Source of the DNA: Mytilisepta virgata
Lineage: Eukaryota > Mollusca > Bivalvia > Mytilida > Mytilidae
Length of the DNA: 64,000 nt
Assembly: GCA_028015205.1 (NCBI GenBank)
Contig: JAPWFG010000025.1
Location: 1,426,001-1,490,000 of the forward strand
Direction: 5' to 3'
The notes below the pieces were generated by a model. It saw only the letters and a program-made list of their open reading frames with translations, searched no databases and had not been told where the DNA came from. Shown here one piece after another: positions 2,420-54,722 of the stretch (the stretch's first letter is position 1; each line of letters begins with the position of its first letter). The position numbers and the translations under genes were made by a program.

Positions 2420-2600
2420 ATTGCCTCCTGGCTTTTTGTTTAGCCTCGTTACAGTTTGTAAATAACATATTATGGGTACCTGAAATCCTTTACAAAGCGT
2501 TCATTTGTTAATTGTTCTCTATTTCTGTCATTTGTTTTTAACAGACAAGGAGGTCTATTTAAAACAGTATTTCGTTAGTTTATGCGAGATAGCCGAAATC
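2420..2600. repeat. Paralogue of the empty insertion site of the giant palindrome
   Basis: This segment contains TTTAGCCTCGTTACAGTTTG uninterrupted. The same sequence is split by the 8.4-kb palindrome: the part up to AGCCTC lies at about 2961-2991 and the part from AGCCTC onward lies at 11403-11565. It therefore acts as an internal reference for the site before insertion, and it shows that the target was already a duplicated sequence. Confidence 0.85.
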
Positions 2601-2985: not shown

Positions 2986-2991
2986 AGCCTC
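2986..2991. repeat. Left target-site duplication AGCCTC
   Basis: AGCCTC directly precedes the palindrome end AGTAGTATATATGCGG. An identical hexamer follows the other end at 11403. The uninterrupted paralogue at 2442 has a single AGCCTC, as expected for a 6-bp duplication made on insertion. Confidence 0.85.
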
Positions 2992-3025
2992 AGTAGTATA
3001 TATGCGGTTCTAAAGTCGCATTTGA

Positions 3026-3295
3026 GGAGGAGGTGCTGAGGAGGAGGTGCCGGAAGTGACGTCATCAGAACCGGAAGTCACGTGACCGGAACCGGAAGTA
3101 CCCGGTTTTCCCGCCATTTCTTTACGGAAGTGACGCAAGTCACGTGCTAGGACCCGGATGTGTGGTCTGCGCATGTTCAGGCGGAACCGGAAGTACTCGG
3201 AAATGGTTTTGCGCGCATGCGCAACCGGAAGTAGTGGATTTTTTCCATGATTTCTTTACGGAAGTGACGTAAGTCACGGACCAGGATGTGCCATG
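3026..3295. promoter_or_regulatory. GC-rich subterminal block with promoter-like motifs, left arm
   Basis: The block holds repeated CCGGAAGT (ETS-type), TGACGTCA or TGACGTAA (CRE-type), CACGTG (E-box) and GCGCATGCGC (NRF-1-type) motifs, in roughly two tandem units. These are motifs typical of CpG-rich animal promoters. Whether the block drives transcription is inference. Confidence 0.6.
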
Positions 3296-3593
3296 CTTGA
3301 CAAGATTGAATTATCTCCCTTTTCCCACACTTCTCGGTCGTCTCTGGATCTTTCATCGGTCTGATACCCTCACTGTTATGTCGAAGTCCGAGAGTATACG
3401 ATAGAAGCAAGAGATTATTGGATTATCTCCCTTTATCCCGCTCTTTTCATCTGCGGGTAATGTTTTCTGTGAGGACAAAAGGTAGGATTGGATTATGCCC
3501 CCTTACCTGCAAGTGATGCTGTTACCAATGGAGGGGTGTCCTTAGCAACCGCCTTAGCAACGGCGGTCCATTTCTATGATGCACTTCGTTTCT

Positions 3594-4290
3594 CTTCTCT
3601 TGCTCCATCCCGCTCCTCGCTGCTCTTCTCTTGCTCCGTGCTGCTCATCGCTGCTCTTCTCTTGCTCATCGCTGCTCATCACTGCTCATTGCTGCTCATC
3701 TCTTGCTCATCACTGCTCATTGCTGCTCATCTCTTGCTCATCGCTGCTCATCGCTGCTCATCGCTGCTCATCGCTGCTCATCTCTTGCTCATCGCTGCTC
3801 ATTGCTGCTCTTCTCTTGCTCATCGCTGCTCATTGCTGCTCTTCTCTTGCTCATCACTGCTCATTGCTGCTCATCTCTTGCTCATCGCTGTTCATTGCTG
3901 CTCATCTCTTGCTCATCGCCGCTCATTGCTGCTCATCTGTTGCTCATCGCTGCTAATTGCTGCTCTTCTCTTGCTCATTTCTGCTCATTGCTGCTCAGGA
4001 CCTTACTCGCGTGCTCATTTCGCTCCTGTTGCTTGTTGCTGTCCGTCATCGCTGCTCTTCTCTTGCTCATTGCTGCTCAATGCTACTCATCTGTTGCTCA
4101 TCGCTGCTCATTGCTGCTCTTCTCTTGCTCATCGCTGCTCATTGCTGCTCAGGACCTTACTCGCGTGCTCATTTCGCTCCTGTTGCTTGTTGCTGTTCGT
4201 CATCGCTGCTCTTCTCTTGCTCATCGCTCCTCTTATCTTGCTCTTTGCTGCTCATCGCTACTCAGGACCTTACACGCGTGCTCATTTCAG
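3594..4290. repeat. Outer minisatellite, left arm
   Basis: The array is built from 10- and 11-bp subunits: TCATCGCTGC, TCATTGCTGC and TCATCTCTTGC. These often combine into a 31-bp higher-order unit. A linker beginning CAGGACCTTACTCGCGTGCT is interspersed. Long open frames of 126-301 codons run through the array only because the unit lacks stops. Their predicted Leu/Cys/Ser-rich products are not considered genes. Confidence 0.95.
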
Positions 4291-4482
4291 TTTTAAGGCT
4301 ACTGCTGCTAGTGGTGGTCGATTGTCGTTATTCAAAGATTGGATCTGTGAGAGAGCACACGGTGGGTCACTCTGCATTTATCCAGGCTTGTGACTGGCTA
4401 TCATAAGATAGGCTGCATTAATCCTCCTCAATTTTTAAGGCCACTCTGCGTTTGTCCAGGCTTGTGACTGGCTATATATATG

Positions 4483-4938
4483 GCTCAAGACCTGCAATGA
4501 ACTTTGACCTGAGGGATACAAAAGAAGTCCATTAAAAAAATTATAATTGCACCATGATATATGGACCTACTGTAAAAAAACCAACCATGATAACTGAATA
4601 ACTAGTGTTGTTTTAAAGGCGTATTTACCTGAGACATTTGACATAGAAATATTGAAAGGATTAAACGAATAAAACCAAGAAAATTTTTATTCTACATGGA
4701 GAGCATGAAAGAGGTACATTTTACTTTGCGGATGGAGACTTTTTTACCATGGCTCGTGATTTCTCAAATTACGGAAAAAGTAGACTGACTTCACACCCCG
4801 AGATTTTAACTGGATATGTGCCATTGTATGGCGATCGTTTTGAGCCATCTCCCATGTTTCAACGAAACGTACAGACTTAATGGCACCCTATTATTTCATG
4901 ACTTCTGTAACAGGAAAACAATTGTGCGGCTTGACCCA
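4483..4938. other. Segment present only in the left arm
   Basis: In the right arm the sequences flanking this segment are joined directly near 8720-8735. Short TATATATG / CATATG similarity lies at the junction. Either the segment inserted in the left arm or it was deleted from the right arm by microhomology. No ORF of note is seen. Confidence 0.75.
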
Positions 4939-4974
4939 TATGTATAAACATATATAGGCTGCATTACCCTCCTT

Positions 4975-5057
4975 CCCTTTTTTTTAAATTTTTTTAAATT
5001 TTTTATTTTTTTTTTTATATATTTTTTTTTCTGTTTTTTTTTTTCTTTGTACCAATT
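4975..5057. other. T-rich (A-rich on the coding strand) run after ORF B, left arm
   Basis: A long run of T with a few A and C lies just downstream of the left ORF B stop. The matching A-rich run in the right arm is at 8610-8690. It could supply polyadenylation-type signals or reflect an old poly(A) tail. The sequence does not decide between these. Confidence 0.6.
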
Positions 5058-5633
5058 TCACATAGAGTCATTGCTGTCTTCAGCTGGTGGTGGGTCGTAG
5101 TCGTTCAATACACGATTAAGCAGATATTTTCGTTTTTCTACGGCGTATTCCCATGATTCTTTTGATTCGTAGTCTTCCTCTTCTCTCAAGCGTTTAGCCG
5201 TTTTCTTGATCTTTCTATGTACGGGGTCTTTATTCATGTCTTGATGCCAGGACAATAGTCCCAGGTAATGGTTTCGCATTTCGTCTCTGTATGTGTCAAA
5301 CATGTCTCGATATGCTGCCAAGCGTGCCTCGTCTTCTTCCATTCCGGCTTCGACAAGTTCGTTTACTTTCTGTGAGTATTCCGATTGATGTACTTGAAAT
5401 GTTTTATTAAAAATGTCTTCCCATGGAGACTGTTCGCATTGCTCTTTGGAGTCTTCGTTGGACTCCTGTTCACTACTTTGTTCGGATTCCTCGTTGTCGG
5501 CTTCTGTGGTGGTATCTGAGACTGAATCACTATAGTCTGTTGAATCCTTCTCCATACCGTGTGCATTCTTTTTGTGTCGCACTATGTTGAAGTTTCGCTT
5601 GGACTGGTATCCACATATGTCACAGGTATACAT
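5058..5633 (-). CDS. ORF B, left-arm copy: C2H2 zinc-finger protein, 191 aa
   Basis: The product starts with a single classical C2H2 finger (C4, C7, H20, H25; spacing C-X2-C-X12-H-X4-H). It continues with an acidic Ser/Glu/Asp-rich stretch at about residues 30-70 and a charged helix-rich C-terminal half. It differs from the right-arm copy (8034-8609) at three residues, roughly positions 54, 77 and 79. It lies 25 bp after the broken left ORF A. The family is not recognised beyond the zinc finger. A nucleic-acid-binding role is inferred from the finger. Confidence 0.7.
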   Translation of the reverse strand: MYTCDICGYQSKRNFNIVRHKKNAHGMEKDSTDYSDSVSDTTTEADNEESEQSSEQESNEDSKEQCEQSPWEDIFNKTFQVHQSEYSQKVNELVEAGMEEDEARLAAYRDMFDTYRDEMRNHYLGLLSWHQDMNKDPVHRKIKKTAKRLREEEDYESKESWEYAVEKRKYLLNRVLNDYDPPPAEDSNDSM

Positions 5634-5658
5634 TTAAGACGTCTTTCTTTCCTTGGAT

Positions 5659-6090
5659 TCAATAGTAGAATAGAGCTGCGGTCGTCCTGCAAGTGCTTAT
5701 ATTACCTACAGGTTCCTCAACGGCTTGTTGATTCATACACAAACGTTTGGCAAAGTATTCGTTTCGAGTATGTTGCAGTTCAGATTTCACTTTTCTGATG
5801 AGGTTTCTATTAAGTCTTGTCCACTCGTTGTCAATCCTTCTACACCCCTTGCAGACATTCATGTTTTTGTAGAATTCCGCAAAGCTCTTGTTCATTTGAC
5901 TCTTTGTACATTTCTTGTTTGGATCCACTTTGCTGGGTCCTCCACTTGTGTTGTCCAGCCGTTTGGTTCTCTCCACTTTGGTTGGAAGTATTTTCCTTTT
6001 CATTTCTGGTTTTGCTTTGGTCTTTGAAAGATCCACAGGTATTAAGTATCTACCAGGAAACAATAAACCGAAAGGCGTTTTCGACTCCAT
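5659..6090 (-). pseudogene. ORF A, left-arm copy, damaged (143 aa)
   Basis: This is the left-arm homologue of the 151-aa ORF at 7578-8033. Two lesions distinguish it. The second cysteine of the CX2C-X15-CX2C cluster is serine (residue 64). One extra T near 5672 shifts the frame after residue 139, so the last dozen residues are replaced and translation ends early. Several other substitutions occur, for example near residues 7, 11, 107-108 and 112. The lesions suggest this arm is decaying while the right arm stays intact. Confidence 0.7.
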
Positions 6091-6221
6091 TGGTACGTGT
6101 GTGTTGTTTGACGGTCTTCAAACAACTGACGAAATTAAACAAAACCTCTGAATATATTTTCGTTAAAAGCTTTCCATTGGCGGCATGGTGGCGAAGATTG
6201 TTTTTGTCTATTCATTCAGAC

Positions 6222-6475
6222 ACAGTTCGCTGCTCGTCATTGTAGTTTGCTGCTCATCATTGCTCATCTTTTGCTCCGCGCTGCTCATTGCTGCTCATCT
6301 CTTGCTCATCGCTGCTCATTGCTGCTCATCTCTTGCTCATCACTGCTCATTGCTGCTCATCGCTTGCTCATCGCTGCTCATTGCTGCTCATCTCTTGCTC
6401 TTTGCTGCTCATTGCTACTCAGGACCTTACTCGCGTGCTCATTTCGCTCCTGCTGCTTGTTGCTGCTGCTGCTGC
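6222..6475. repeat. Inner minisatellite, left arm
   Basis: The array has the same 10/11-bp TCATNGCTGC-type subunits as the outer array and ends in a short (TGC)n run. The right-arm partner is at 7250-7447. Open frames through it are repeat artefacts. Confidence 0.95.
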
Positions 6476-6652
6476 TGAGGAGGTGAAGGTGGGATTCTTA
6501 CTGTTTCGTTATGAGTCAATCTTGTTCCCGTTGATGTTACGATGGACATCCAAGATGGCTGCGGACATGTAACGCGGACCTGAAAGAGAGCACCCTCATG
6601 AAACAGAAATTTTAGAGTCTTTCCGGACGGAAACGAACGTTTCCGGATTTCA

Positions 6653-6789
6653 GTCCTAACCATAACCCTAACTCGAGTCCTAACCCCAACCCTAACTCTA
6701 ACCCTAACCCTAACTCTAACCCTAACCCTAACCCTAGTTCTAACCCTAATTTTAACTCTAACCCTAACCCTAGTGCTGCCTCTAACCCA
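6653..6789. repeat. Telomere-like CCCTAA repeats, left arm
   Basis: A degenerate 6-bp array of CCCTAA with CTCTAA, CCCTAG and CCCCAA variants. The inverse TTAGGG array lies at 6957-7074. TTAGGG is the animal telomere unit. The array is interstitial and part of the palindrome. Confidence 0.95.
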
Positions 6790-6840
6790 TATTGTAGGGC
6801 TGTCTCGTACTCCTACTCTAAGCGCTCATACCTCACGTCG

Positions 6841-6904
6841 TTGGATCACCTAAGCAAGCGTGACTGTTTGCCTCGTGTTTGTCAAGCTTGCACCAGTGAA
6901 CCAT
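6841..6904. other. Unpaired centre (64-bp loop) of the palindrome
   Basis: The left arm ends CACGTCG at 6840 and the right arm begins CGACGTG at 6905. The 64 bases between do not pair. The ORF A/B units on both sides are transcribed away from this centre. Confidence 0.85.
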
Positions 6905-6956
6905 CGACGTGAGGTATGAGCGCTTAGAGTAGGAATACGAGACAGCCCTACGATAT

Positions 6957-7074
6957 GGGTTAGAGGCAGCACTAGGGTTAGGGTTAGAGTTAAAATTAGG
7001 GTTAGAACTAGGGTTAGGGTTAGGGTTAGAGTTAGGGTTGGGGTTAGGACTCGAGTTAGGGTTATGGTTAGGAC
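6957..7074. repeat. Telomere-like TTAGGG repeats, right arm
   Basis: Degenerate TTAGGG array, inverse of 6653-6789. Reading across the centre gives CCCTAA, loop, TTAGGG, which is the opposite of the order made by a telomere end-to-end fusion. Confidence 0.95.
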
Positions 7075-7249
7075 TGAAATCCGGAAACGTGCGTTTCCGT
7101 CCGGAAAGACTCTAAAATTTCTGTTTCATGAGGGTGCTCTCTTTCAGGTCCGCTTTACATGTCCGCAGCCATCTTGGATGTCCATCGTAACATCAACGGG
7201 AACAAGATTGACTCATAACGAAACAGTAAGAATCCCACCTTCACCTCCT

Positions 7250-7447
7250 CAGCAGCAGTAGCAGCAGCAACAAGCAGCAGGAGCGAAATGAGCACGCGAG
7301 TAAGGTCCTGAGTAGCAATTAGCAGCAGAGAGCAAGAGATGAGCAGCAATGAGCAGCGATGAGCAAGAGATGAGCAGCAATGAGCAGCGCGGAGCAAAAG
7401 ATGAGCAATGATGAGCAGCAAACTACAATGACGAGCAGCGAACTGTG
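7250..7447. repeat. Inner minisatellite, right arm
   Basis: Inverse counterpart of 6222-6475, with GAGCAGCAAT and GAGCAGCGAT subunits and a CAG-rich start. It is somewhat shorter than the left-arm array. Confidence 0.95.
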
Positions 7448-7577
7448 TCTGAATGAATAGACAAAATTAATCTTCGCCACCATGACGCCAATGGAAAGCT
7501 TTTAACGAAAATATATTCAGAGGTTTTGTTTAATTTCGTCAGTTGTTTGAAGACCGTCAAACAACACACACGTACCA

Positions 7578-8033
7578 ATGGAGTCGAAAACGCCTCTCGG
7601 TTTATTGGTTCCTGGTAGATACTTAATACCTGTGGATCTTTCAAAGACCAAAGCAAAACCAGAAATGAAAAGGAAAATACTTCCAACCAAAGTGGAGAGA
7701 ACCAAACGGCTGGACAACACAAGTGGAGGACCCAGCAAAGTGGATCCAAACAAGAAATGTACAAAGTGTCAAATGAACAAGAGCTTTGCGGAATTCTACA
7801 AAAACATGAATGTCTGCAAGGGGTGTAGAAGGATTGACAACGAGTGGACAAGACTTAATAGAAACCTCATCAGAAAAGTGAAATCTGAACTGCAACAATC
7901 TCGAAACGAATTCTTTGCCAAACGTTTGTGTATGAATCAACAAGCCGTTGAGGAACCTGTAGGTAATATAAGCACTTGCAGGACGACCGCAGCTCATTCT
8001 ACTATTGAATCCAAGGAAAGAAAGACGTCTTAA
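7578..8033 (+). CDS. ORF A, right-arm copy: small zinc-binding protein, 151 aa
   Basis: The intact reading frame starts at an ATG in the context ACCAATGG. A basic N-terminal half is followed by four cysteines at residues 61, 64, 80 and 83 (CX2C-X15-CX2C). The segment between them resembles the CxxC...FYK...CKxC zinc ribbons seen next to some nucleases. The stop TAA is immediately followed, in the same frame, by the ATG of ORF B, so the two ORFs abut as TAAATG. The antisense 142-aa frame is a shadow. The function is not recognised. Nucleic-acid binding is inferred from the Cys cluster and basic charge. It could be element-encoded or captured cargo. Confidence 0.7.
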   Translation: MESKTPLGLLVPGRYLIPVDLSKTKAKPEMKRKILPTKVERTKRLDNTSGGPSKVDPNKKCTKCQMNKSFAEFYKNMNVCKGCRRIDNEWTRLNRNLIRKVKSELQQSRNEFFAKRLCMNQQAVEEPVGNISTCRTTAAHSTIESKERKTS

Positions 8034-8609
8034 ATGTATACCTGTGACATATGTGGATACCAGTCCAAGCGAAACTTCAACATAGTGCGACACAAAAAGA
8101 ATGCACACGGTATGGAGAAGGATTCAACAGACTATAGTGATTCAGTCTCAGATACCACCACAGAAGCCGACAACGAGGAATCCGAACAAAGTAGTAAACA
8201 GGAGTCCAACGAAGACTCCAAAGAGCAATGCGAACAGTCTCCATGGGAAGACATTTTGAATAGAACATTTCAAGTACATCAATCGGAATACTCACAGAAA
8301 GTAAACGAACTTGTCGAAGCCGGAATGGAAGAAGACGAGGCACGCTTGGCAGCATATCGAGACATGTTTGACACATACAGAGACGAAATGCGAAACCATT
8401 ACCTCGGACTATTGTCCTGGCATCAAGACATGAATAAAGACCCCGTACATAGAAAGATCAAGAAAACGGCTAAACGCTTGAGAGAAGAGGAAGACTACGA
8501 ATCAAAAGAATCATGGGAATATGCCGTAGAAAAACGGAAATATCTGCTTAATCGTGTATTGAACGACTACGACCCACCACCAGCTGAAGACAGCAATGAC
8601 TCTATGTGA
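8034..8609 (+). CDS. ORF B, right-arm copy: C2H2 zinc-finger protein, 191 aa
   Basis: The frame is intact and nearly identical to the left-arm ORF B. A C2H2 finger occupies residues 4-25, then comes an acidic Ser/Glu-rich region, then a charged helical C-terminal half containing a Trp-Glu-Tyr-rich segment. It starts directly after the ORF A stop and in the same frame. Loss or suppression of that one TAA would give a single protein of about 343 residues with both zinc modules. Both arms carry the TAA, so it predates the divergence of the arms. An A-rich run follows the stop. The product is not recognised. Confidence 0.75.
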   Translation: MYTCDICGYQSKRNFNIVRHKKNAHGMEKDSTDYSDSVSDTTTEADNEESEQSSKQESNEDSKEQCEQSPWEDILNRTFQVHQSEYSQKVNELVEAGMEEDEARLAAYRDMFDTYRDEMRNHYLGLLSWHQDMNKDPVHRKIKKTAKRLREEEDYESKESWEYAVEKRKYLLNRVLNDYDPPPAEDSNDSM

Positions 8610-8910
8610 AATTGGTACAAAGAAAAAAACAGGAAAACAAATATATAAAAAAAAAATTTAAAATTTAAAAAAATTAAAAAAAAAGGGAAGGAGGGTAATG
8701 CAGCCTATATATGTTTATACATATATATAGCCAGTCACAAGCCTGGAAAAATGCAGAGTGGCCTTAAAAAATTCAGGAGGATTAATGCAGCCTATCTTAT
8801 GATAGCCAGTCACAAGCCTAGATAAATGCAGAGTGACCCACCGTGTGCTCTCTCACAGATCCAATCTTTAACGACAATCGACCACCACTAGCAGCAGTAG
8901 CCTTAAAACT
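8610..8910. other. A-rich run and linker, right arm
   Basis: An A-rich run follows ORF B. It is followed by a linker with CCAGTCACAAGCCT repeated at 8732 and 8804, inverse to 4290-4480 and 4940-5050 of the left arm. No ORF is supported. Confidence 0.7.
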
Positions 8911-10605
8911 GAAATGAGCACGCGAGTAAGGTCCTGAGTAGCGATGAGCAGCAAAGAGCAAGATAAGAGCAGCGATGAGCAAGAGAAGAGCAGCGATGAG
9001 CAAGAGAAGAGCAGCGATGACGAACAGCAACAAGCAACAGGAGCGAAATGAGCACGCGAGTAAGGTCCTGAGTAGCATTGAGCAGCAATGGGCAAGAGAA
9101 GAGCAGCGATGACGAACAGCAACAGGCAACAGGAGCGAAATGAGCACGCGAGTAAGGTCCTGAGTAGCGATGAGCAGCAAAGAGCAAGAGAAGAGCAGCG
9201 ATGAGCAAGAGATGAGTGGCGATGAGCAGCAATGAGCAGCGTTGATCAAGAGATGAGCAGCAATGAGCAGTGATGAGCAGCAATGAGCAGTGATGAGCAG
9301 CGATGAGCAAGAGAAGAGCAGCGATGAGCAGCACAGAGCAAGAGAAGAGCAGCGAGGAGCGGGATGGAGCAAGAGTAGAGAAACGAAGTGCATCATAGAA
9401 ATGGACGCCGTTGCTGAGGCGGTTGCTAAGGACACCCCTCCATTGATCTATTGGTGACAGCATCCCTTGGAGGTAGGGGGACATAATCCAATCCTACCGT
9501 TGGTCCTCACAGAAAACATCACCCACAGATGAAAAGAGCGGGATAAGGGGAGATAATCCAATAGTGTACTTCGTATACTCTCGGACTTCGACATAACAGT
9601 GAGAGTATCAGACCCTAGAGACCGATGAAAGATCCAGAGACGACCGAGAAGTGCCGGAAAGGGTGGATTAAGAGATGAACAGCGATGACGAACAGTGACA
9701 AGCAGCAGGAGCGAAATGAGCACGCGAGTAAGGTCCTGAGTAGCGATGAGCAGCAAAGAGCATGGGTTGAGCAGCAATTAACAAGAGAAGAGCAGTGATG
9801 AGCAAGAGAAGAGCAGTGGTGAGCAGCGATGAGCAGCAAAGAGCAGCGAGGAGCAAAAGATGAGCAGCAATGAACAGCGATGAGCAAGAGATGAGCAGCA
9901 ATGAGCAGCACGGAGCAAGAGATGAGAAACGAAGTGCATCATAGAAATGGACCGCCGTTGCTAAGGCGGTTGCTAAGGACATCCCTCCATTGATGACAGC
10001 ATCACTTGCAGGTAAGGGAACATTATCCAATCCTACCTTTGGTCCTCACAGAAAACATCACCCGCAGATGAAAAGAGCGGGATGAAGCAAGAGAAGAGAA
10101 ACGAAGTGCATCATAGAAATGGACCGCCGTTGCTAAGGCGGTTGCTAAGGACATCCCTCCACTGGTGACAGCATTACTTGGAGGTAAGGGGACATAATCC
10201 AATCCTACTTTTGGTCCTCACAGAAAACATCACCCACAGATGAAAAGAGCGGGATAAGTGGAGATAATCCAATAGTGTACTTCGTATACTCTCGGACTTC
10301 GACATAACAGTGAGAGTATCAGACCCTATAGACCGATGAAAGATCCAGAGACGACCGAGAAGTGCGGGAAAAGGGTGGATCAAGAGATGAACAGCGATGA
10401 CGAACAGTGACAAGCAGCAGTAGCGAAATGAGCACGCGAATAAGGTCCTGAGTAGCGATGAGCAACACGGAGCAAGAGATGAGCAGCAATGAGCAGCGAT
10501 GAGCAAGAGAAGAGCAGCAATGAGCAGCGACGAGCAAGAGAAGAGCAGCAATGAGCAGCGATGAGCAAGAGATGAGCAGCGATGAGCAGTGATGAGCAAG
10601 AGAAG
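8910..10605. repeat. Outer minisatellite and expanded composite blocks, right arm
   Basis: GAGCAGCGATGAGCAAGAGA-type arrays alternate with a conserved block carrying CGAAGTGCATCATAGAAATGG, GTTGCTAAGGCGGTTGCTAAGG-type sequence and an AAAACATCACCC motif. That block occurs near 9380, 9930, 10102 and 10611 but only once in the left arm (near 3567). Tandem expansion by unequal exchange or slippage explains most of the extra length of the right arm. Long frames here (up to about 205 codons) are repeat artefacts. Confidence 0.9.
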
Positions 10606-10903
10606 AGAAACGAAGTGCATCATAGAAATGGACCGCCGTTGCTAAGGCGGTTGCTAAGGACACCCCTCCATTGGTAACAGCATCACTTGCAGGTAAGGGG
10701 GCATAATCCAATCCTACCTTTTGTCCTCACAGAAAACATCACCCGCAGATGAAAAGAACGGGATAAGGGGAGATAATCCAATAGTGTACTTCGTATACTC
10801 TCGGACTTCGACATAACAGTGAGGGTATCAGACCGATGAAAGATCCAGAGACGACCGAGAAATGTGGGAAAAGGGAGATAATTCAGTCTGGTCAAGCATG
10901 GCA

Positions 10904-11370
10904 CATCCTGGTCCGTGACTTACGTCACTTCCGTAAACAATTCATGAAAAAAATCCACTACTTCCGGCTGTGCATGCGCGCCAAACCACTTCCGAGTACT
11001 TCCGGTTCCGCCTGAACATGCGCAGACCACCCATCCGGGTCCTAGCACGTGACTTGCGTCACTTCCGTAAAGAAATGGCGGGAAAACCACTACCTCCGGT
11101 TGCGCATGCGCGCAAATCACTTTCGGGTACTTCCGGTTCCGGTCACGTGACTTCTGGTTCCGGTCACACATGCGCAGAGACACATCCGGGTCCTAACACG
11201 TGACTTACGTCACTTCCGGCAAGAAATGGCGCGAAACACCACTACTTCCGGTTGCGCATGCGCGCAAATCACGTCCGGGTACTTCCGGTTCCGGTCAAGT
11301 GACTTCCGGTTCTGATGACGTCACTTCCTGCGACGTCATTTCCGGTTGACGTCACTTCCGGCACCTCCTC
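10904..11370. promoter_or_regulatory. GC-rich subterminal block with promoter-like motifs, right arm
   Basis: Inverse of the left block at 3026-3295 but with about one more tandem unit. It contains ACTTCCGG, TGACGTCA, CACGTGAC and TGCGCATGCGC motifs repeatedly. It is very CpG-rich compared with the AT-rich surroundings. Confidence 0.6.
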
Positions 11371-11402
11371 AAATGCGACTTTAGAACCGCATATATACTA
11401 CT

Positions 11403-11408
11403 AGCCTC
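11403..11408. repeat. Right target-site duplication AGCCTC
   Basis: Identical to 2986-2991 and adjacent to the right terminus ATATATACTACT. It continues into target sequence that matches the paralogue at 2442-2600. Confidence 0.85.
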
Positions 11409-11565
11409 GTTACAGTTTGTTAATAACATATTATGGGTACCTTATATCCTTTACAAAGGATTGATTTGTTAATTGTTTTCTATTTCCGTCATTTGTTTTT
11501 AAAAGACAAGGAAATCTATTTAAAACAGTATTTCGTTAGTTTATGCGTGATAGCCGACTTCTTTT
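11403..11565. repeat. Right half of the interrupted target repeat
   Basis: It matches 2442-2600 in order, including GTTACAGTTTG, CATATTATGGGTACC and AACAGTATTTCGTTAGTTTA, then diverges. It marks host sequence displaced from 2961-2991 by the insertion. Confidence 0.85.
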
Positions 11566-14205
11566 ATTTGTTAAAATAAAGTTTATTTTAAATCAGGGTG
11601 AGTTATTCTCAAACAGACCGATTGACGTCATAATGACATCGGAATAGAAACGGATAGATGTAAGAAGTTGTTTTACTATAAACTTTGCAATTAATTTCGG
11701 AAATGAAAGTCATCCATCAAAATTATACAAGGAAATTCAAATTTTTACATTTGTAGTGAAGATTGTGATTTGTAATGCAACATATATTTTCGTTGAATAG
11801 ACCGACTGCATCCAAACTGCGCATATGAGAGTCTTAGCTAGGTTTACATTTAAACGAGCATATATTGAACATGTTATCTAAAATATGTACCGTTCAGTCT
11901 AATTTTGCTGTTCTAGCAAACAGTCAATTTATTTGTAATCTTACTGTATTGGTTTTTGAAGCGTGGTTTATAAATCTGATTGGTTGATACGTCATTGTTG
12001 AGCCCTATTGTTATCCAATTTGTTGTTTTTCAGATGATTTCATCTCATTTTACAATTCACAGAATCTCCAGCTGTTCATTTCATATTTATATATAAACTT
12101 TAAATTGCCCTTTTAAGTACATGTATCATCAACGAGTTATATGGATATATTGTGGTAAAGGTTGAAAAAAGTTTTCTATAGATTTATTTTATACTTGTGT
12201 AGAACATTACATTTCAACGTTGTCAACACACTATATTGATAAACTTGCAACCGTGTTTTCAAATAGGAACGCCTATACAACTCTTGTGTAACAGTATTTA
12301 TTAACCACCTAGGTAAAATTATAGCTAAAATGCATATGTATTACAAATTTCACAACAGGGCCATTACGACAAAACAGGGCATTATTACAGGGCCGATTAT
12401 GAAAAAACAGGGCCATTATGAAATAAAAAAATTAAATATGGCTACACATTTCTGAGGATTTTGTCGCATGGGATTTTTTGCTGTTGATTGTGCTGATCGT
12501 ACAATTCTGTTTTATGCTATTGACTATAAAGAATTTCTATTCAGCCGGAAGTTGCTAAAAGACTGTATTTTAACCTTTTTCACACCGGAAACTGATAGAA
12601 ATTAGCAGACAACAGGTAAGAAATGCAATGTCTGTTGACAATCCAGTAGAGCGCTTGCATTGCGAAATACCAATCAACGTCTATCTACTATAATGGGTAG
12701 AACACTTAACATAAATTAACATTTACTCTAGGAAGAGAAATTTTGAGACTGACAATTTTCAGTAATTCTATTATTCAATGAACTTATCCCATTTGTTACA
12801 GTTTCTTTTGTGAAAAGCATATGGTATAATGAAGCTCTCAACATTTTTTTTTATTCGATACTTCATCAGACGTACATGTAGTTTAAAAATTAATTCTATT
12901 TCTCTTCTATCTCACATCCTTCATTACATAAACTAGTAGCAACAAACAAATGTGATGTAGAATAACTTTTACGGAACAAACATTTTATAACAAGTTACAA
13001 CTGATGAAAGTTTGTAATAGGCATAAAAATACCTCTAGTTTCGGGGCTGTAATGGCACTCGGCGTTGCCTTGGGCCATTACAACCTTCCTCGGGTCATTA
13101 TTACAGACCTTGGACATATTAAAGGGCCATTATAAAAACGCCCATTCATTAATACTATAATAATAACTATTTAATCAAATTTGCGGTTAATGATTGATTG
13201 ATTGCTGTTTGCCTTACGACCAAATAATTCATGACACGAACAACATATGGCAATATTGCGGTACTTTGCTAATTTGCATAGCAGCCGTTTTGGATTTCTC
13301 TGACAACATTCATTAAAAGCATTATACTTGCCCAAAAATAAAAATGCAAACATTCAAATTATTATAACTCAAAAGCATAATGGTAAATTCTACACAATAT
13401 TAGCTTTCTTTTCGTGTGCAAATAAACATTGTCAGCTTTGAAAACTTTCCGCCAATTTAGTTTTAAAAACTGAAGCGTAACCGTAGTATAACTGCTATTT
13501 GAATAAACCAAAATTAGTGAAAAATGCAAATTCAAACTACAAATACAGATACAAGGGGAGATCAATCACACATTGTCCGCATATGGAGAACCACTTTGGA
13601 GGATGAATTTTATGAGGAAATAACTTTTATCTCACCTGCTTCCATAAGTTTTCGCCAAACTGTTTTTAAAACATGATAATTGCAAGTCTAACCATAGCGT
13701 AATACTTCAAATCTGAAGCCTTTTCCCTCAGAATTAAACAAACAATTTGTAAATATCCACCAAAGGAAGTTTTCATAGACACATTAGTTTAAGAGCAGAG
13801 ACGGGAAAAGACTCGATTATCAGTAATTCAAACATTTTTATCATTTTCGATCTACAACTAAGGGAGGTAATTTGTTTAAAAGGGCTGATGTTACGTGATG
13901 CAAGTGCTATGAATAAAGTATCCAGCATTTTGTCATATGAGTTCAACAAGTTATCAAACGCTATTTCAAAAAGAGGTGGAATGGAACACCAAGTGGTTGG
14001 AATGGGATTGATATTTCAGTCTTCCCTAGCCGACATTAGCATACTCTTCCAAAAATACAGAAAGGGTCTTAAACGTGCAGGAATCGTTTCTGTTTTTCTT
14101 TCTTTCTAAATTGCATTTAATAAGCGAGTGAAACTCGTTCTTAAGTGTTTCAAATTTCGGATATATATGTGTATACATGATAAGGGCTAAGTATTCTACA
14201 ATTGA
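11566..14205. other. AT-rich DNA without a recognised gene
   Basis: The motif GGGCCATTA recurs at about 12358-12420 and 13070-13135. The open frames (13171-13353, 13362-13565, 13888-14109) are short, low-complexity or unmatched to any family I know. No RNA gene was seen. Confidence 0.5.
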
Positions 14206-41300: not shown

Positions 41301-44300
41301 GACGGTTGTTATAACGGGCATCTCCAGACACAGATATAGGATGAGACTTTTCAAAGCCATGTATTTCATTCAGCTTTGTAAGCAATTATCTGCGGTCTTG
41401 CATGTCTGCTTCATTCACTAACCAATATACCAGCATTATGCATGCTACTGCGTGAGGGTACTGGTATTCCAGCTAATAAAAATATTGTTCGAATGCATTC
41501 GATTCCCAGAGGTGAGCTTTGCAATCCAACATGGATGCCTACGTTTAATGTTGAATATTTTTGTCCCTTTTTGGTCTCCTGACTACTTCTATGTAAACTT
41601 TAGATTTCTTGCCGTCAAATTTACAGGTCCAACACTTAAGTCCTAATCTCCAGGAAAATCCCCATTTTTGTGTAAATTTTTCTTTAAAGCTTAACTGAAT
41701 TTTACATTTTGAACTGTTGTCTAAATGTTCTGTATAAAAGTCATTAAATATGTCAAGCAATTTTCCACAGTGGAGATTTTATAGCCATGAATATCAATGT
41801 CATCTTCTTCATCAATTTCAGGCTCATCTGGTGGTTGGTCAACTGATGGTCTGAAGAACCTTATGTTTCCAGGATTTCCCTGTGAATCTGTCATCTGGTA
41901 GTAGCTGTCATTTGAACATGGTCTAACAGCCTGATCAAACACAGACTTTGGAAGCGTTTTGAGGAAACTGCAACTTTTGTAGTCTTTATCTCCTCTCGAG
42001 AACTGTAATATGGGTGGCCAGTTTGAAAGTTTACTGGCTTTTTTTCGGTCTTCCTCTCTTTGACATTTTTAAAATTTTACCTTAGGCACCAACTAGCAGG
42101 GCTGATATATCATGTACCTTAAACTTATAATTTATTTCAAAATCAAAGAAATTAAATGGGTAATTAAATCTGACTTGTTGTTTACAATGGTACTGACAAC
42201 TCACTTTCGAATCATCATAGCTAAGAGCTGATAAACTAATCAACTTTATGGGTCAGTATATCAGGGGAAGCATTTGATATACTCTCTCTACACATCAAAT
42301 GAACTTTTAATTTAAGTTATTAAGATATTTAAAAAGCTGAAAAACCAGACAAAAACTATCCAAATTTTCTACCTTGATTTAAAAAATTGACAATATTCCA
42401 AGCTTGGCATTAGGAATTAACTTTTCATATATTTGTGTAATTAGGTGTATGTGAACCTTATATAATAACTTTTATTTAAAATTTGTCATCTTCTACTTGT
42501 AGTAAATGCAGTTTCTTTTTTGACTGTTTTATGTGTATTAAAAATATATTTTCATATTTCCCACCTATGGGTACTACCATTTTTATTGATTTATCTCCAC
42601 TTATATGGACAGAATTTCTATCCTGGGGATCATATTTTGTTTGATGTTACTTTTTTAATTTAAAATATTAAACAATATATCGGTACCATTTTTGGTTTAC
42701 TTAAGGGGGCACTACAGTAAATCAGCCAGTCACGTGTTTTGACAGAGTAGGAAAGTAGTACATAATGGGACTTTGACATTTTTTTTAATTTGTTTTGGTA
42801 TGTTTGAAAGGGAGATTTAATTGTAGTTTTTTACATATGATAATTTGAAGTGCGCAGTGTAATTTTTGTGAGTTTTTTTTTGGTACATTTACATACTCCA
42901 GATTGGTGAGGGAAATTCTTACACCCCTGTGAAGGCATTTCCTGTTTATAGAAAAGTTTTCAACAGCCGATCTTTCTCTTATTTGGTAAACAACCCTATG
43001 GAAAAACAGGTAAATTTTATTCCACAGACATCAAATTAATTGTTGATATGCATAGGACTTGTAGGCAAATTAATTTTGATTTTTGAGAAATGTTTTATTT
43101 ACTATTAAAGTCAATGGTAATGGATTTAGTGGTGTGCCTTCTTAATATGTGCTAGTAAGTTTATATTCGATTACGGGAACGACTGATTTGCAACGGAATT
43201 GTGGACTAGGAAGCAGGAAGCAGTTGATCATGATATAAACCGGAAACAATCGATAAAAAGCCCGCTAAGCCAATTCTTATAAGATTTGGGCAGAAATATG
43301 TACAGTTTCCAATTCTATCGTAGGGTAAAATTTTACCTGTATTTTCTAAAAGTACAATAATGTATATGATAATATTAAATACTGATTATCAAAGTATATC
43401 TAAAATATATCTAAGCTATTCATGCTTATTCTTTTGGTCGTTTTAAATAATTGAGGCCCTTGCAATTTTTACGTATTTTAGTTATTCGATAAAAAAAACG
43501 TGTTCTTTGAAAAACACGAATCATTTATTTTAACTTAAATATTTTGTTTCTGTGTTAAAAACTTATCCTAAATCAATTATTTATAATTCTTAAAGATGCA
43601 ACCACCGTCCAAACTGCCATCGATAATAATAAAAAAATCAAATATATTGAAAAAAACTCCTTGAAAAATTACTGTGGACCACTTACGGGTTTTGTTAAGA
43701 TTTTGATTCGTTTGAATGTGAATAATGAAGTTGTTTCATTTGTACGCATGAAAACCAATTTTAGTTTGTTATGTAAAACGTAGGTGATAAGCTACTTCAG
43801 TTTGCTACATATAAATTTGTATTGTAGGCAGTCTTATTTGTCTGTGTTCCCCCTTCTGTCTGTTACGTTTTGATGACTATTGATCTTTTTTATAAACGTA
43901 ACAGTTGAATAAAGATGTAAATCGACAATTTTTTTTCGAAATCAGGTCAAATATGTTAGGTATATACCTCCTCTACGGAACAGTGCATTAATCACAATTG
44001 CTTCATGTGTGGAAATGGGAAAATCCATAAAAAAATTTAACGTAATACTATGTATGACAATGGACATTATAAAAGAGAGTATAAAAGACTACTAACTAAA
44101 ACGATGCTCTAAGGGAAATATACTCTATACTACCATACCACATTTGCAATTAAAATAACGATTGAAACAAAAAGTTCATCAATGTTTTTTTTTAAGAAAA
44201 ATGGAACACGCAGGTATAAATTTCTAGTTTAGAGTCTAGGTAGAGAAAAGGCTTATTTCGTTAAGAACCACTCTGATTCTGAAAAAAAAGTACTTTGAAG

Positions 44301-47300
44301 ATGAAATTGCAAACATGTTAGATTTTCTCATAGACAACATATAATTCGGCATTCCAATGGAAGCCAACTGCTCCTCTCCTCGCCGATCTGTTTCTGTACT
44401 CATATGAAGTGCACCTCAATCAAGGGCTTCTACGCGAAAACAAAAAGAAACTAGCCCAATCCTTTGATTTCACTTTTCGTTATATAGATGACGTGTTGTC
44501 GTTGAATAACGATAACTTCCAAGACTTTCTATACATCATCTACCCCACTGAACTTGAAATTCAGGATACTACAGATACATCAAAGTCCGTTTCATATTTG
44601 CATTTGCTTCTCGAAATAGACAATGAGGGACATCTGAAGACAAAACGTTATGACAAACGTGATGACTTCGACTTTCCTATTGTTAACTTTTCTTTCTTGA
44701 GTAGCAATATACCAGCATCGGCTGCATATGGTGTCTACGTTTCTCAGCTTACTCGATATTCAGGGGCATGCGTGAGTTACCATGAATTTCGATAAAGAGG
44801 ATTACTGCTGTCAGAAAAGCTTCTTGACCAGGGTTTTATCAGGGAGAAGTTGAGGCCATCACTTAGGACATTTTACGGTCGTCATCACAAATTGATTGAC
44901 CCGTTATAGTGTTCCAATATCTAAGATGATGTTGGACCTGTTCCCACTGTCGTAACATTTCATGTACCTCCACCGATTTGTGACTTCCGCCGGATTGACT
45001 TGTTAAACTTCACGACGGGTGCTGTATACGGAACAGGAACTGCTTACCCTTCCGGGGCACCTGTGTTCAGTCCTGGTTTTTATAGGAGTTCGTGTTGTTT
45101 ATTGGTTTTTAGTTTTCAATGTTTATTTGTTGTGCTCCTGGTTGTTCATTTGTCTTCCTGGGTTTTGTCTGTCTTAATGGATTGCGTTTTTTGGATTTCT
45201 CCTTATGTGTATTTGTCCTCTATATCAATATTCCACATTAATATGTTTAACCCCCAAAATAGTCATACAGCCATCATGACCATCGCTTGGGATTATTTGA
45301 AATCGATCATGATTCTGGTTATCGATTGGTATGAAAAAGTTACCTTTCTTGTTTATTTTTCATTTTCCTTTTTGAAAAATAATTAGTTAATTTCGATCTC
45401 ATTGTTAGCTCAACTGGCAAAAGGTCAGTGTAAGCCATTGCCATCACATGGCCCCGTCACTCCATTGAATGTTTATTATTAAGATTTTAATCTTCTTCGT
45501 GAGAGGTGCTAGGCAGAGTTTAACCAAACTTTGTAGAGATGTTTATTTTTATGTCCTTCCAGAGTTGTTACTTTGGTGCTGGTTAGTGAAAAACATGAAA
45601 ACAAGAGCTTTTTCTATTTCACATTCTCTGTGCTTTAAAAGAAGTCCCCTCTGCTATAGGGTGGTAAAATCTCAATGGCTACGGCTATAAACATAGATAA
45701 GGGATTTTCCCCAGTCATGTCCTTCTTGATGTAGAAATGTACGATCTTAGGTCGAAAGCAAAGACAAATGCGACGTGAGTTTCAATACGCATTAAGGTAT
45801 GAATAATGAAGTTGTTTCATTTGTACGCATGAAAACCAATTTTAGTTTGTTATGTAAAACGTACGTGATAAGCTACTTCAGTTTGCTACATATAAATTTG
45901 TATTGTAGGCAGTCTTATTTGTCTGTGTTCCCCCTTCTGTCTGTTACGTTTTGATGACTATTGATCTTTTTTATAAACGTAACAGTTGAATAAAGATGTA
46001 AATCGACAATTTTTTTTCGAAATCAGGTCAAATATGTTAGGTATATACCTCCTCTACGGAACAGTGCATTAATCACAATTGCTTCATGTGTGGAAATGGG
46101 AAAATCCATAAAAAAATTTAACGTAATACTATGTATGACAATGGACATTATAAAAGAGAGTATAAAAGACTACTAACTAAAACGATGCTCTAAGGGAAAT
46201 ATACTCTATACTACCATACCACATTTGCAATTAAAATAACGATTGAAACAAAAAGTTCATCAATGTTTTTTTTTAAGAAAAATGGCACACGCAGGTATAA
46301 ATTTCTAGTTTAGAGTCTAGGTAGAGAAAAGGCTTATTTCGTTAAGAACCACTCTGATTCTGAAAAAAAAGTACTTTGAAGATGAAATTGCAAACATGTT
46401 AGATTTTCTCATAGACAACATATAATTCGGCATTCCAATGGAAGCCAACTGCTCCTCTCCTCGCCGATCTGTTTCTGTACTCATATGAAGTGCACCTCAA
46501 TCAAGGGCTTCTACGCGAAAACAAAAAGAAACTAGCCCAATCCTTTGATTTCACTTTTCTTTATATAGATGACGTGTTGTCGTTGAATAACGATAACTTC
46601 CAAGACTTTCTATACATCATCTACCCCACTGAACTTGAAATTCAGGATACTACAGATACATCAAAGTCCGTTTCATATTTGCATTTGCTTCTCGAAATAG
46701 ACAATGAGGGACATCTGAAGACAAAACGTTATGACAAACGTGATGACTTCGACTTTCCTATTGTTAACTTTTCCTTCTTGAGTAGCAATATACCAGCATC
46801 GGCTGCATATGGTGTCTACGTTTCTCAGCTTACTCGATATTCAGGGGCATGCGTGGGTTACCATGAATTTCGATAAAGAGGATTACTGCTGTCAGAAAAG
46901 CTTCTTGACCAGGGTTTTATCAGGGAGAAGTTGAGGACATCACTTAGGACATTTTACGGTCGTCATCACAAATTGATTGACCCGTTATAGTGTTCCAATC
47001 GTTATTGGAACACTATAACGGGTCAATCAATTTGTGATGACGACCGTAAAATGTTGGATGATGTTGGACCTGTTCCCACTGTCGTAACATTTCATGTACC
47101 TCCACCGATTTGTGACTACCGCCGGATTGACTTGTTAAACTTCACGACGGGTGCTGTATACGGAACAGGAACTGCTTACCCTTCCGGGGCACCTGTGTTC
47201 AGTCCTGGTTTTTATAGGAGTTCGTGTTGTTTATTGGTTTTTAGTTTTCAATGTTTATTTGTTGTGCTCCTGGTTGTTCATTTGTCTTCCTGGGTTTTGT

Positions 47301-50300
47301 CTGTCTTAATGGATTGCGTTTTTTGGATTTCTCCTTATGTGTATTTGTCCTCTATATCAATATTCCACATTAATATGTTTAACCCCCAAAATAGTCATAC
47401 AGCCATCATGACCATCGCTTGGGATTATTTGAAATCGATCATGATTCTGGTTATCGATTGGTATGAAAAAGTTACCTTTCTTGTTTATTTTTCATTTTCC
47501 TTTTTGAAAAATAATTAGTTAATTTCGATCTCATTGTTAGCTCAACTGGCAAAAGGTCAGTGTAAGCCATTGCCATCACATGGCCCCGTCACTCCATTGA
47601 ATGTTTATTATTAAGATTTTAATCTTCTTCGTGAGAGGTGCTAGGCAGAGTTTAACCAAACTTTGTAGAGATGTTTATTTTTATGTCCTTCCAGAGTTGT
47701 TACCTTGGTGCTGGTTAGTGAAAAACATGAAAACAAGAGCTTTTTCTATTTCACATTCTCTGTGCTTTAAAAGAATTCCCCTCGTTATGTTTCTTTAAAT
47801 GTCATAAATAAATCCTGTTACATACGACGGACCCTATGATGATGTATTTAAATTTGTTCTGAAAAACAATGGATTTACAACCAGCTGACAGCAGGTTATA
47901 TTTATGAAATGTGGAATATTGTTTTTATTTTCGGCTAACAAATATGGCTTCCACAAACCAAAATGGGCATTTCTGATAAGATATGCAACTTACCATGTAC
48001 TTCGACATAACACAACTCAACAAATGCTTCATTTGGATCTGTATTATAAAACACAACTTTTCTTCCCACTATGTTACAATCAATATTAAATATAAACTGC
48101 TGATTTTCTAGGGTGTCTGGATCTTTATAACAAAGAAAACCGACAGGTGTTCCATGTGGTATATTTCCACTTGTACTATTTGTTACATACAAAGAAAATC
48201 CATTTACTCGTGTAGCGACTGAAAAAAAAATCTTAAAGACAATGCCTGTAATTAAAGCTGTATGTTATCTACATGTTTTATCACCGACTTGAAATAAATG
48301 TCGGGCCGTTAAGAGCCCTGGTTACCACATAAAAATATCTGATTTTATTTGCTGTACTTTAGTAAAAAAAAACATGATTATATACATTAACATTATTGTG
48401 CTCAAGACAGAGAAGACAATTTGTTTTTCTGTGACGTTAGAGCGATTTCACGTTATGTAAATGTACCATTTCACCTAAAAATTAAAACAACGCCATACGA
48501 CCCATTTCGTTATAAAAATATGATAAAAACACAAAACTCTGAGGTTGGTACCATACATTGTAGGTACCATCTTCAACATGTAAAGGAGAACATTTTCTAG
48601 ATAAATTTGACTTCTGTTTAAATGCGTATTGAAACTCACGTCGCATTTGTCTTTGCTTTCGACCTAAGATCGTACATTTCTACATCAAGAAGGACATGAC
48701 TGGGGAAAATCCCTTATCTATGTTTATAGCCGTAGCCATTGAGATTTTACCACCCTATAACACCACTGTATAGCCTTTGGCTCCGACTGTGGCTGTACAA
48801 AGGTGCAAAAAGCTATTTGAAGCGTAGATAATAGATATAATTTTACCTCAGATATATATCAATGACACACTAGGTTCATAAATACTAACGTGATTTCAAA
48901 TAATTTTGACATTTATTTTATTTCGAAAACTGGGCTCTCGGTGAATAACCTAGTTTGAAAAACAATAAGTGGAGAATTATAAATTATTCACTAGGCAATA
49001 AACCTCTTGAAAACAATCAGCAGTAGGAGCTATCATAATTATCATTCCATGCTATAATAATAATACAATTACCACCCTTTCAAGAGGTGCATATCCAAAA
49101 TTGTAAACCTGAGTTATTCCCTTCCGGAAAGTCTCGAAACTCGGGGTATAACCGAAACTCAGGTTGGCAATTGTTTGGTATTCACCTCTTGAAAGGGCAA
49201 TAATTGTATAATATCAAATATTAGTATCTTTGGATTGTTATTTTCTAATGGAAGAAGAATTTTAACGAACTATAATGCAGATATTTATTAAATTGCACAA
49301 GTAACTAGACCTTGCTCAACTGGTTTTCTTAAATGAATATTATTGCCATTGAATTTTTTTAATGGTATAAAATTTATTACTATATTAGGGGGTCATCAGA
49401 TTTATTTTTTAAGTTTATTAAATTGATAACATCATGTATGTGAAAGCGCAACATCATAACGTTGTCGCGCTATAAATGGTATATATTTAGTGTTTTGACA
49501 CATAGGACAAATGGTTTCCACTGCGAAAAGGAAACCGGTGATCCTATCTTTATTTAGTATCAATAAAACAGAACAATTAACAGAAAATAACACGCATGTT
49601 TATAAACATTCTACTTAAAAAATTTTTGCGGCTGTCTTTAGGTCATGTATGTGAAATCTATGGTAAACGGCCTTTTTTTCATAAGTTTTAAATCAAACTT
49701 TTTGAACAAATATAAAAGTTAGAACACATTCAAAATATTAAAATTTCGATATTTAGATGCAGTTTCGGATATTTTAGCTTTATTCAAAATTTCATAAAAA
49801 ATCGTTCATTTTCAAGCGGGTTTACTTTAGAATGAATCTAGATGGATGAATATTGTTCAATATCAAGTGGTAATTATGTTATGCGTACCAGTAACCAGTA
49901 ATTGATGTGAGCAGACGACACAAAAATTTACAGGGAACACTCAAGGGTAAGTTTAGTATGTATATTTGTGTACTAGTACAACAATTGCAGATAAAACGGG
50001 TTGATTGATTGATTGATTGATTCAATAGTTTTCAATGCCCTGTGGGGAACATTTAAGCCATATCATGACCAGATCTAATTAATTAATGTTGATAGAAAAT
50101 AAATTGCATTTTAATTCTTTTAGAATATACATATTTAAAACATTTTAACAACACATTTTTATTTCCTGGAAATCGAGGAATTGGTATCCTAATATTAGTT
50201 AATATAATACTTACACGTATCTCTGAAATATATGATCACTGTGCTTATGAAAAGAGGTTCGACAAAGTAAAGACTCCACCAGGCAGTCTTCTGGATTCCC

Positions 50301-50565: not shown

Positions 50566-51541
50566 TGTAACGTGCAGGGTGTCAGACCCACACGCCAGAT
50601 GGGGGAATTGGTACAACAAAAGTTTTACCACGTGAATTCGTGCCGAGGTTACTTCCACCGATTTGTTGGGTGCCTATACTGCACGTCTGCTTAACTAGTG
50701 GTAGCGTAATGTTGATTCGAATGACCCTTAGAACCTATTCCCTTACCAAATGACCAGAGACCTTATTGTATGCTTGTGTGCGAAAGTGTCCCTAACCGAT
50801 TGTAATGTTAACGACCACGAGTATACTACTGACAGTTGTTCTCTAAGCAGCGACCCTCTGGTTCTTATTCAGAGACTAAGTGGCGCCAACCCACAAGGAC
50901 AGGATGTTATTGCCTCCTGTTTGTGTTGAAAGGTAATGTTGTATGACAAAAAAAACCACTGGTCCTTATTCAGGAACAGGTGCCCACTGGTATTAAGTAA
51001 CCGTTTGTCAGGACCACTTGTTACACAAGACAATTAGTCACCGCCTTATTCAGACAGTTAAAATGGTCTACTTCTTATTCTTCCAATTGTACTTGAAAAA
51101 CTTGTAAGAATTAATTACCTTCCTAACTATACAGTCGCTCAGATTTGTATTGGTTGTGTTCTTACTCAGAACTCCCGAGAAACTGAAAAACTCCCGCTTA
51201 TATACCTTATTCTGTAACCTCTAAACCAAATAATCTCTAATCCAAAATAAAATAATCCCGCATCACGTCGGCATTTTACCCAACCAAACTAATACCATTG
51301 GTTTTGAAGTGTACTTTTATAACTTCGAATTAACCGACCAGGATCGGACAACGTGCATGTATCTAAATTCCGGATTATAGTCCGAACCTTTTCCGTAAAT
51401 TACCATAGTACCAAATAACTTGAAAACGAAAGTAGGATTTCTATCAAACAATAGCGTAACCAAATCGATCTTTTGACAATATAAATGAATTAAAAAGTTC
51501 CCAAACTAGCTTAAAACGTAAGTCTAATAAATTTCGTCACA
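50566..51541 (-). repeat. 3' LTR
   Basis: About 976 bp. It matches 54723-55668, with extra sequence near 50860-50900 absent from the other LTR. The region just outside (51542-51560) is moderately purine-rich on the minus strand and may be the polypurine tract. Confidence 0.85.
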
Positions 51542-52009
51542 TTACCCACGCCTCTAGGAAATGCGTCCCCGCATTTAACTTAACCAAAGGACTCGGCTGA
51601 CATATTACCAATAGGCCCTTTTTCATGCCTCAAACTCACACAACGTACACAACAGCAGTTTCCAAGGACAAATTGTCACAACTCCCAGAAGTGCCGAATT
51701 CTATCGAACACAAATATATAAGCCTCAAACACCAGGTTGGTCCCTTAGAAATCATACCCTACCAACAAGTCCATTCCTCTCAGCCTTTCCTATGGTACCT
51801 ATAACCTACTTAATCCAGTGGAATTTCCTAAATAACTCACTTAATATGTAAATCTAACATTTTGGCTAAACTTCTCGTCAAAAATTAATTTCAAACTTAT
51901 TACTGGTCATTCGACTTAACTTAAATGTCCTACGCACCTTTGGTTCAAATTTAGCAATACTGAGCAACCGTAACTTTTGACCTATAAAGGGATGATAACA
52001 TATTAAAGT

Positions 52010-52558: not shown

Positions 52559-52572
52559 TGTATATATCAGAT

Positions 52573-54690: not shown

Positions 54691-54722
54691 AGAACAAATC
54701 CCACCGCTGCCACCAAAATTTA

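Follow-up and report, generated by a model that had tools for sequence, protein, structure and literature searches.

A family of gene-carrying palindromic elements with Polinton-type ends and a common central hairpin in the genome of Mytilisepta virgata

The origin and upkeep of transposons built as kilobase palindromes are, in our judgement, unsettled. FB of flies is a foldback element. Galileo, another foldback element, makes a 7-bp target duplication and has arms of 18-1,250 bp (PMC3573991), and vertebrate Mavericks, or Polintons, have 5'-(AGT)2//(ACT)2-3' ends with 6-bp duplications and terminal inverted repeats of 46-1,447 bp (PMC8097293). Further literature consulted was PMC2836005, PMC10045372, PMC3706591, PMC11071308 and PMC10294476. 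We analysed a stretch of 64,000 nt from the bivalve Mytilisepta virgata (GCA_028015205.1, contig JAPWFG010000025.1, positions 1,426,001 to 1,490,000 of the forward strand), called the window below, to which all coordinates refer unless stated otherwise. Positions 2992-11402, on the contig that we call C17, hold a palindromic element which is one of hundreds of related mobile copies. These copies have common ends, 6-bp duplications at many sites, one common axis and exchangeable arm genes, and the arms within a copy are mostly 98-100% identical. The palindrome is inherited and is not a one-off dimer.

Comparison of the window with itself showed that inverted repeats span the whole of 2992-11402. 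The left terminus (2992..3016, plus strand) starts with AGTAGT, and its 25-mer recurs exactly inverted at the right terminus (11378..11402, minus strand), which finishes with ACTACT; the 25-mer had no match in shuffled sequence. AGCCTC adjoins the element on both sides, at 2986..2991 and 11403..11408. The window alone is also compatible with a 7-bp duplication, TAGCCTC, and the length of 6 bp was settled by other copies. The initial annotation had given the palindrome these limits and called it a bounded mobile element with a 6-bp target duplication, all of which was borne out, since the copies have termini in common and 10 of the 11 testable ones are flanked by exact 6-bp duplications. It had also proposed looking for common termini and target duplications in other copies; both were found, and the window itself holds an empty-site paralogue which that annotation had overlooked. 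Positions 2441-2615 align with the right flank (11402-11576) along 175 bp with 90% identity and contain a single AGCCTC (2442..2447), preceded by a stretch that resembles the left flank when compared by eye, and for these reasons we read the region as a paralogous, uninterrupted target.

Searches covered the source genome (1.034 Gb), and copies are labelled by contig (C) or by fetched locus (L). The terminal 16-mer (2992-3007) was found at 533 places, 267 forward and 266 reverse, and its reversed-pattern control at none; IMG/VR holds three matches to this 16-mer. Position-based tests on the termini used the first 100 of the 533 places. Among these 100 ends, 20 pairs face inward at a distance of up to 20 kb (1.2-15.8 kb apart), and no pair faces outward. 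Exact 6-bp duplications flank six copies (AGCCTC, CACTTC, TTTCAC, CATAAC, TATATA and AAGAAC) and four of five further end pairs (GATCAA, AATCTA, AACGAC and ATGTAT), so that they were seen in 10 of the 11 copies with both ends, and in 10 of all 13 that were examined. The end pair L024/L025 has TATGA in common but out of register, copy C10 lacks the right terminus, and copy C14 lacks both ends. When 30 end loci were fetched, the CpG-rich end segment was present in all 30, the next segment in 28 and the minisatellite in 27. Flanks are in common between L029 and L030 and between L033 and L034, which look like duplicated loci.

The two arms, delimited by inverted-repeat comparison, meet at an axis between 6872 and 6873 (left arm 2992..6872, plus strand; right arm 6873..11402, minus strand). 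The 64-bp centre of the initial annotation is present (6841..6904), but it is not a plain spacer: it is itself an imperfect hairpin tip with a 16-nt loop (6865-6880), short stems with small internal loops, and uninterrupted pairing beyond. The 146 nt surrounding the centre fold with a z of -17.3, and the tip, with 11 bp, the 16-nt loop and a 4x4 internal loop, with a z of -4.9. Allowing up to two mismatches, a 26-mer of the centre was found at 409 places in the genome and its reversed-pattern control at none. A search with the left arm returned at least eight loci; the halves of the centre lie 16 nt apart in seven of eight, and the eighth (C14) ends just beyond the loop. The tip is asymmetric: when 30 tips were oriented on the loop, TGGT stood 5' and CTAA 3' in 24, and the opposite polarity was never seen (0/30). 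The remaining rows have CTAA on both sides (three rows, from two loci), TGGT on both sides (one) or point changes (two), and the tips of C9 and C10 are symmetric too. An asymmetric tip beside homogenised arms, which becomes symmetric in either way when it changes, is the main reason why we infer a self-paired intermediate. The pattern would be the outcome expected from repair of a paired hairpin, and chromosomal conversion could also produce it.

Arm identity was compared at 29 distinct centre loci (L075, the other centre at locus L074, was left out). Two recognisable arms were present at 24 of them, and at 19 of the 29 the arms were at least 98% identical over at least 800 aligned bp; those of L062 showed no difference at 1497 aligned positions. 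Across the unit of about 1,300 bp that carries the open reading frames (ORFs), the arms differ by 4 bases in C1, 11 in C10, 16 in C11 and 20 in C17, and in a tree the arms of one copy were sisters in C1 (99/96), C10 (100/98) and C11 (96/94). Of the 51 arm differences in these four copies, 46 are private (found in a single arm), and the two arms were hence almost identical when they were inserted. The same subterminal variant is found at both ends of a copy, about 8 kb apart. When 26 two-armed copies were compared over 612 bp, the median number of differences was 1 for the two arms of a copy and 27 for arms taken from different copies. In copies C6, C9 and C13, only one arm still contains the ORF part.

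We favour, with a probability of roughly 0.6, the reading that this is a non-autonomous, gene-carrying palindromic element which is inserted via a Polinton-type integrase and whose arms are homogenised in a self-paired hairpin form. In the proposed course of events, the integrase would be supplied in trans and would insert the element. The extrachromosomal form would be a self-paired duplex some 4 kb long, with the 16-nt hairpin closing one end and (AGT)2 at the other, open end. Copying that starts at this open end and passes round the hairpin would yield a palindrome whose arms are identical to each other, as are its ends. While paired, the arms would be homogenised by repair or copying, from which the unpaired loop and, usually, the mismatched tip stem would escape. 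After insertion the arms would diverge independently, so that their divergence would date each copy, like the divergence of long terminal repeats, and serve as a clock for each insertion. The common hairpin tip, the Polinton-type ends and the private arm mutations make hairpin replication with a virus-like helper directly testable, and if the proposal is right, Polintons would be accompanied in a large genome by palindromic satellites that carry genes.

Hairpin-ended viral genomes and the palindromic ribosomal DNA of ciliates have an imperfect hairpin tip and a palindromic intermediate, and protein-primed viruses form symmetric defective genomes in which one end is duplicated in inverted orientation by fold-back copying. 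By analogy with such viruses and ciliate ribosomal DNA, copying round the hairpin may be protein-primed, the doubled trinucleotide being taken as a hint. The likeness to the hairpin-ended genomes and ciliate ribosomal DNA lies in the imperfect tip and, presumably, in the palindromic intermediate; the differences are that the palindrome here is chromosomal and flanked by target duplications, and that ORF A and ORF B, the two genes of each arm, have no Rep-type match. Unlike the symmetric defective genomes, the present elements are a heritable family with genes of their own. A rolling-hairpin, parvovirus-like element is not supported, as neither ORF has such a match. Of the two origins that the initial annotation had offered, an inverted dimer made by hairpin replication fits best, given the common axis, the asymmetric tip and arms that were near-identical at insertion; the dimer is not one-off, nothing parvovirus-like was seen, and the replication step would be of the kind proposed above.

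The family resembles the Polintons of PMC8097293 in its (AGT)2//(ACT)2 ends, an end signature published for vertebrates, and in its 6-bp target duplications, terminal inverted repeats and variable accessory genes. It differs from them in that the window element is almost wholly palindromic, that a central hairpin is common to the copies, and that the window element has neither a PolB match nor another recognisable transposition gene. A genome-wide search with PF03175 gave 117 PolB matches, some within open frames of about 1,400 codons, and none on C17. Pfam found no integrase in ORF A or ORF B, and no search was aimed at integrases. The ORFs of at least 80 aa in the window element are ORF A and ORF B, frames antisense to them and repeat-derived frames, and no further long ORF that might encode a capsid, ATPase or protease was seen, profiles having been run on ORF A and ORF B only. 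As PolB and any other recognisable gene for transposition are missing from the window element, we regard it as non-autonomous and as having Polinton-type ends, and we do not file it as a Polinton; most likely it uses a Polinton integrase in trans. No palindromic Polinton was among the matches listed from the open-licence literature. The parts are known and the arrangement is new, namely Polinton-type ends on a gene-carrying palindrome with a common hairpin. A more specific and more tentative proposal, which we hold to be possible, is a class of eukaryotic satellite replicons, each with a mobile genome that is a single strand complementary to itself. Folded into some 4 kb of duplex, with a conserved, asymmetric 16-nt hairpin at the closed end and a Polinton-type open end, such a genome would parasitise Polinton replication and integration, open into an 8-kb palindrome for integration, reach hundreds of copies in one genome and ferry exchangeable regulatory genes (the zinc-finger pair and PC4).

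Several observations weigh against a Polinton-type integrase and a self-paired form. The end signature comes from a vertebrate-only source (PMC8097293), and no helper with the same ends was found, 16 of the 17 PolB matches on C1-C4 having been compared and all 16 lying at least 197 kb from any of the 100 listed ends. At four of the 29 centre loci a second arm is missing, and one further locus has a short match; the arms of the window element itself do not form a resolved sister group in the tree; and for 5 of the 51 arm differences both states are found in other copies. In the 612-bp comparison, the arm strictly closest to a given arm was its own sister in 6 of 26 copies; in 8 the sister shared this place with others, and in 12 another arm was closer. 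This test does not discriminate, because many copies are near-identical. The arms of L069 come from two subfamilies and show 34 differences in the 612 bp, more than those of any other of the 26 copies. Neither an extrachromosomal form nor a transposition event was seen, and gene conversion between chromosomal arms could be an alternative homogeniser.

This last point leads to the strongest rival, an ordinary foldback transposon that moves as a duplex and whose arms are kept alike by chromosomal conversion or cruciform repair, with no hairpin replication intermediate. The initial annotation had likewise suggested a foldback transposon mobilised in trans, and the shape fits: the window element has very long inverted arms holding tandem repeats, and long arms of this kind, their variable length and many non-autonomous copies are likenesses to Galileo and FB. 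Homogeneous arms within a copy are expected from such an element, and both kinds of symmetric tip could come from conversion. The ends, however, are of Polinton type, and AGTAGT with 6-bp duplications differs from the 7-bp duplications of Galileo, a member of the P superfamily, as do the gene-bearing arms and the asymmetric tip. Moreover, the private differences persist in older copies, which argues that no conversion after insertion has been keeping those arms alike, and the subterminal variants common to both termini also speak against it. We consider the ordinary foldback transposon doubtful as an explanation. Rather improbable is that the ends belong to another DNA-transposon superfamily with 6-bp duplications and resemble those of Polintons by convergence. 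It would agree with the lack of PolB matches near the 100 listed ends, and IS3EU and Dada also make 6-bp duplications. But IS3EU/GingerRoot elements have termini TA..TA, occasionally TG..CA, unlike the AGTAGT ends here; Dada has no terminal inverted repeats and inserts in small RNA genes, which is contradicted by the long inverted repeats, and the window contains no tRNA gene (snRNA genes were not searched). The doubled AGT and the duplication length both agree with Mavericks. Long palindromes are prone to misassembly, but an inverted duplication that arose only once, or an error of assembly, is scarcely credible in view of hundreds of dispersed ends and centres, differing target duplications and arm-specific differences.

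Each arm carries a two-ORF zinc-protein unit, as the initial annotation had claimed, with ORF A altered in the left arm. ORF A of the right arm (7578..8033, plus strand) encodes 151 aa with a CxxC...CxxC pattern, and ORF B (8034..8609, plus strand) follows in the same frame directly after its TAA, the junction being TAA|ATG. In the left arm, ORF B (5058..5633, minus strand) encodes 191 aa with a C2H2 finger and a helical domain, and ORF A (5659..6090, minus strand) has a 1-bp indel relative to the right arm and one CxxC cysteine replaced. In both arms the two ORFs point away from the centre. Copy C6 has a truncated ORF B. A profile of ORF B matched 202 proteins at E<=0.01 (4437 candidates), and among the 120 relatives listed many lie on contigs of 0.1-14 Mb; no relative of ORF B was confirmed in IMG/VR, GTDB contigs or phage records. 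The matched proteins apparently form a zinc-protein family of at least 202 members, undescribed as judged by Pfam, PHROGs and PDB. The predicted structure of ORF B (mean pLDDT 82.7) has its helical domain at residues 70-178 and no PDB or viral match at E<=0.001; the best 60 solved chains by sequence match only the finger region, one of them extending to profile position 64. ORF A has no homologues at E<=0.01 and only weak zinc-ribbon/endonuclease profile matches (best 0.0066). One protein, P0017, has A-like and B-like parts in one frame, and ORF A matches its N-terminal part with a pairwise E of 2e-06; the upstream part of P0004 gave no match to ORF A. In L072 (176-871), one arm likewise has no stop between ORF A and ORF B. 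Neither ORF matches a Rep-type endonuclease or helicase, and the window element has no other long non-repeat ORF. Between its arms there are 0 synonymous and 6 non-synonymous differences in the first 418 nt of ORF A, and 3 and 3 in ORF B; over 12 arms, singletons are 10 synonymous and 33 non-synonymous and other variants 5 and 12. Given these counts, recent purifying selection is not claimed.

In a copy of 12.96 kb, a like centre is accompanied by a different gene, which encodes 182 aa with a PC4 domain (67.9 bits, cut-off 25); the inner arms of this copy are 98% identical over 491 bp. Outward-facing PC4 matches stand on both sides of four centres, picked by eye and confirmed among 60 chosen, at 1.9-3.2 kb (C7:8122999, which is L080, C9:27372488, C13:15700142 and C6:48039984). 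Since each arm of L080 contains ORF A as well, some copies may carry ORF A/B and PC4 together. The genome has at least 150 PC4 matches; of the 150 scored, 5 have one of 104 PolB places no more than 20 kb away (a raw count). Among the matches listed, PC4 pairs up to 18 kb apart are convergent in 44 cases, divergent in 8 and on the same strand in 17; the convergent pairs perhaps represent further palindromic families with inward-facing PC4 genes. A 91-aa ORF in L050 scored 20.6 bits for Bcl-2, below the cut-off of 31.4, and is not claimed as such.

The two arms of the window element differ by about 1% in the ORFs (6/576 in ORF B, 6/456 in ORF A), by about 4% in the CpG-rich end at 3104-3401 (11/298) and by about 15% in the outermost stretch at 3036-3103 (10/68). 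Minisatellite length differs strongly between them. The left minisatellite (3592..4232, plus strand) has periods of 10, 21 and 31, and on the right, repeat detection found an inner block (8936..9380, minus strand) and outer blocks (9737..10607, minus strand) with a 172-bp repeat interspersed. The arm-specific indels that the initial annotation had cited as an argument against an artefact were confirmed: some 460 bp form a block that is confined to the left arm, and additional minisatellite and a 188-bp end segment are confined to the right. The left-only block (4479-4937) recurs at 98% in copy C6 (L014, 1462-1919), there inside the minisatellite, and may be a separate small insertion; its 71-aa frame had no match in database or profile searches. 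Telomere-like repeats do flank the centre on both sides, in the CCCTAA sense at 6655..6772 and the TTAGGG sense at 6973..7072 (both read on the plus strand). This order is the opposite of that of two fused chromosome ends, which rules out a telomere fusion.

The ends are indeed rich in CpG, with observed/expected ratios of 1.23 and 1.31 against 0.79 outside the element. The left end (2992..3300, plus strand) and the right end (10890..11402, minus strand) both contain CCGGAAGT, GCATGCGC, TGACGTCA and CACGTG sites, which we take to be candidate targets of ETS, NRF1, CREB and USF factors. Together they hold 13 CCGGAAGT, every one reading inward (shuffle mean 0.037), 7 GCATGCGC (0.021), 3 TGACGTCA (0.028) and 5 CACGTG (0.479). 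Elsewhere in the window, two units of about 2 kb stand in tandem at 43719-47783; they are 97% identical and contain long frames. At 50566-55668, direct repeats of about 0.98 kb with 90% identity enclose frames (52010-53969, minus strand) that look by eye like the gag-pol of a retrotransposon.

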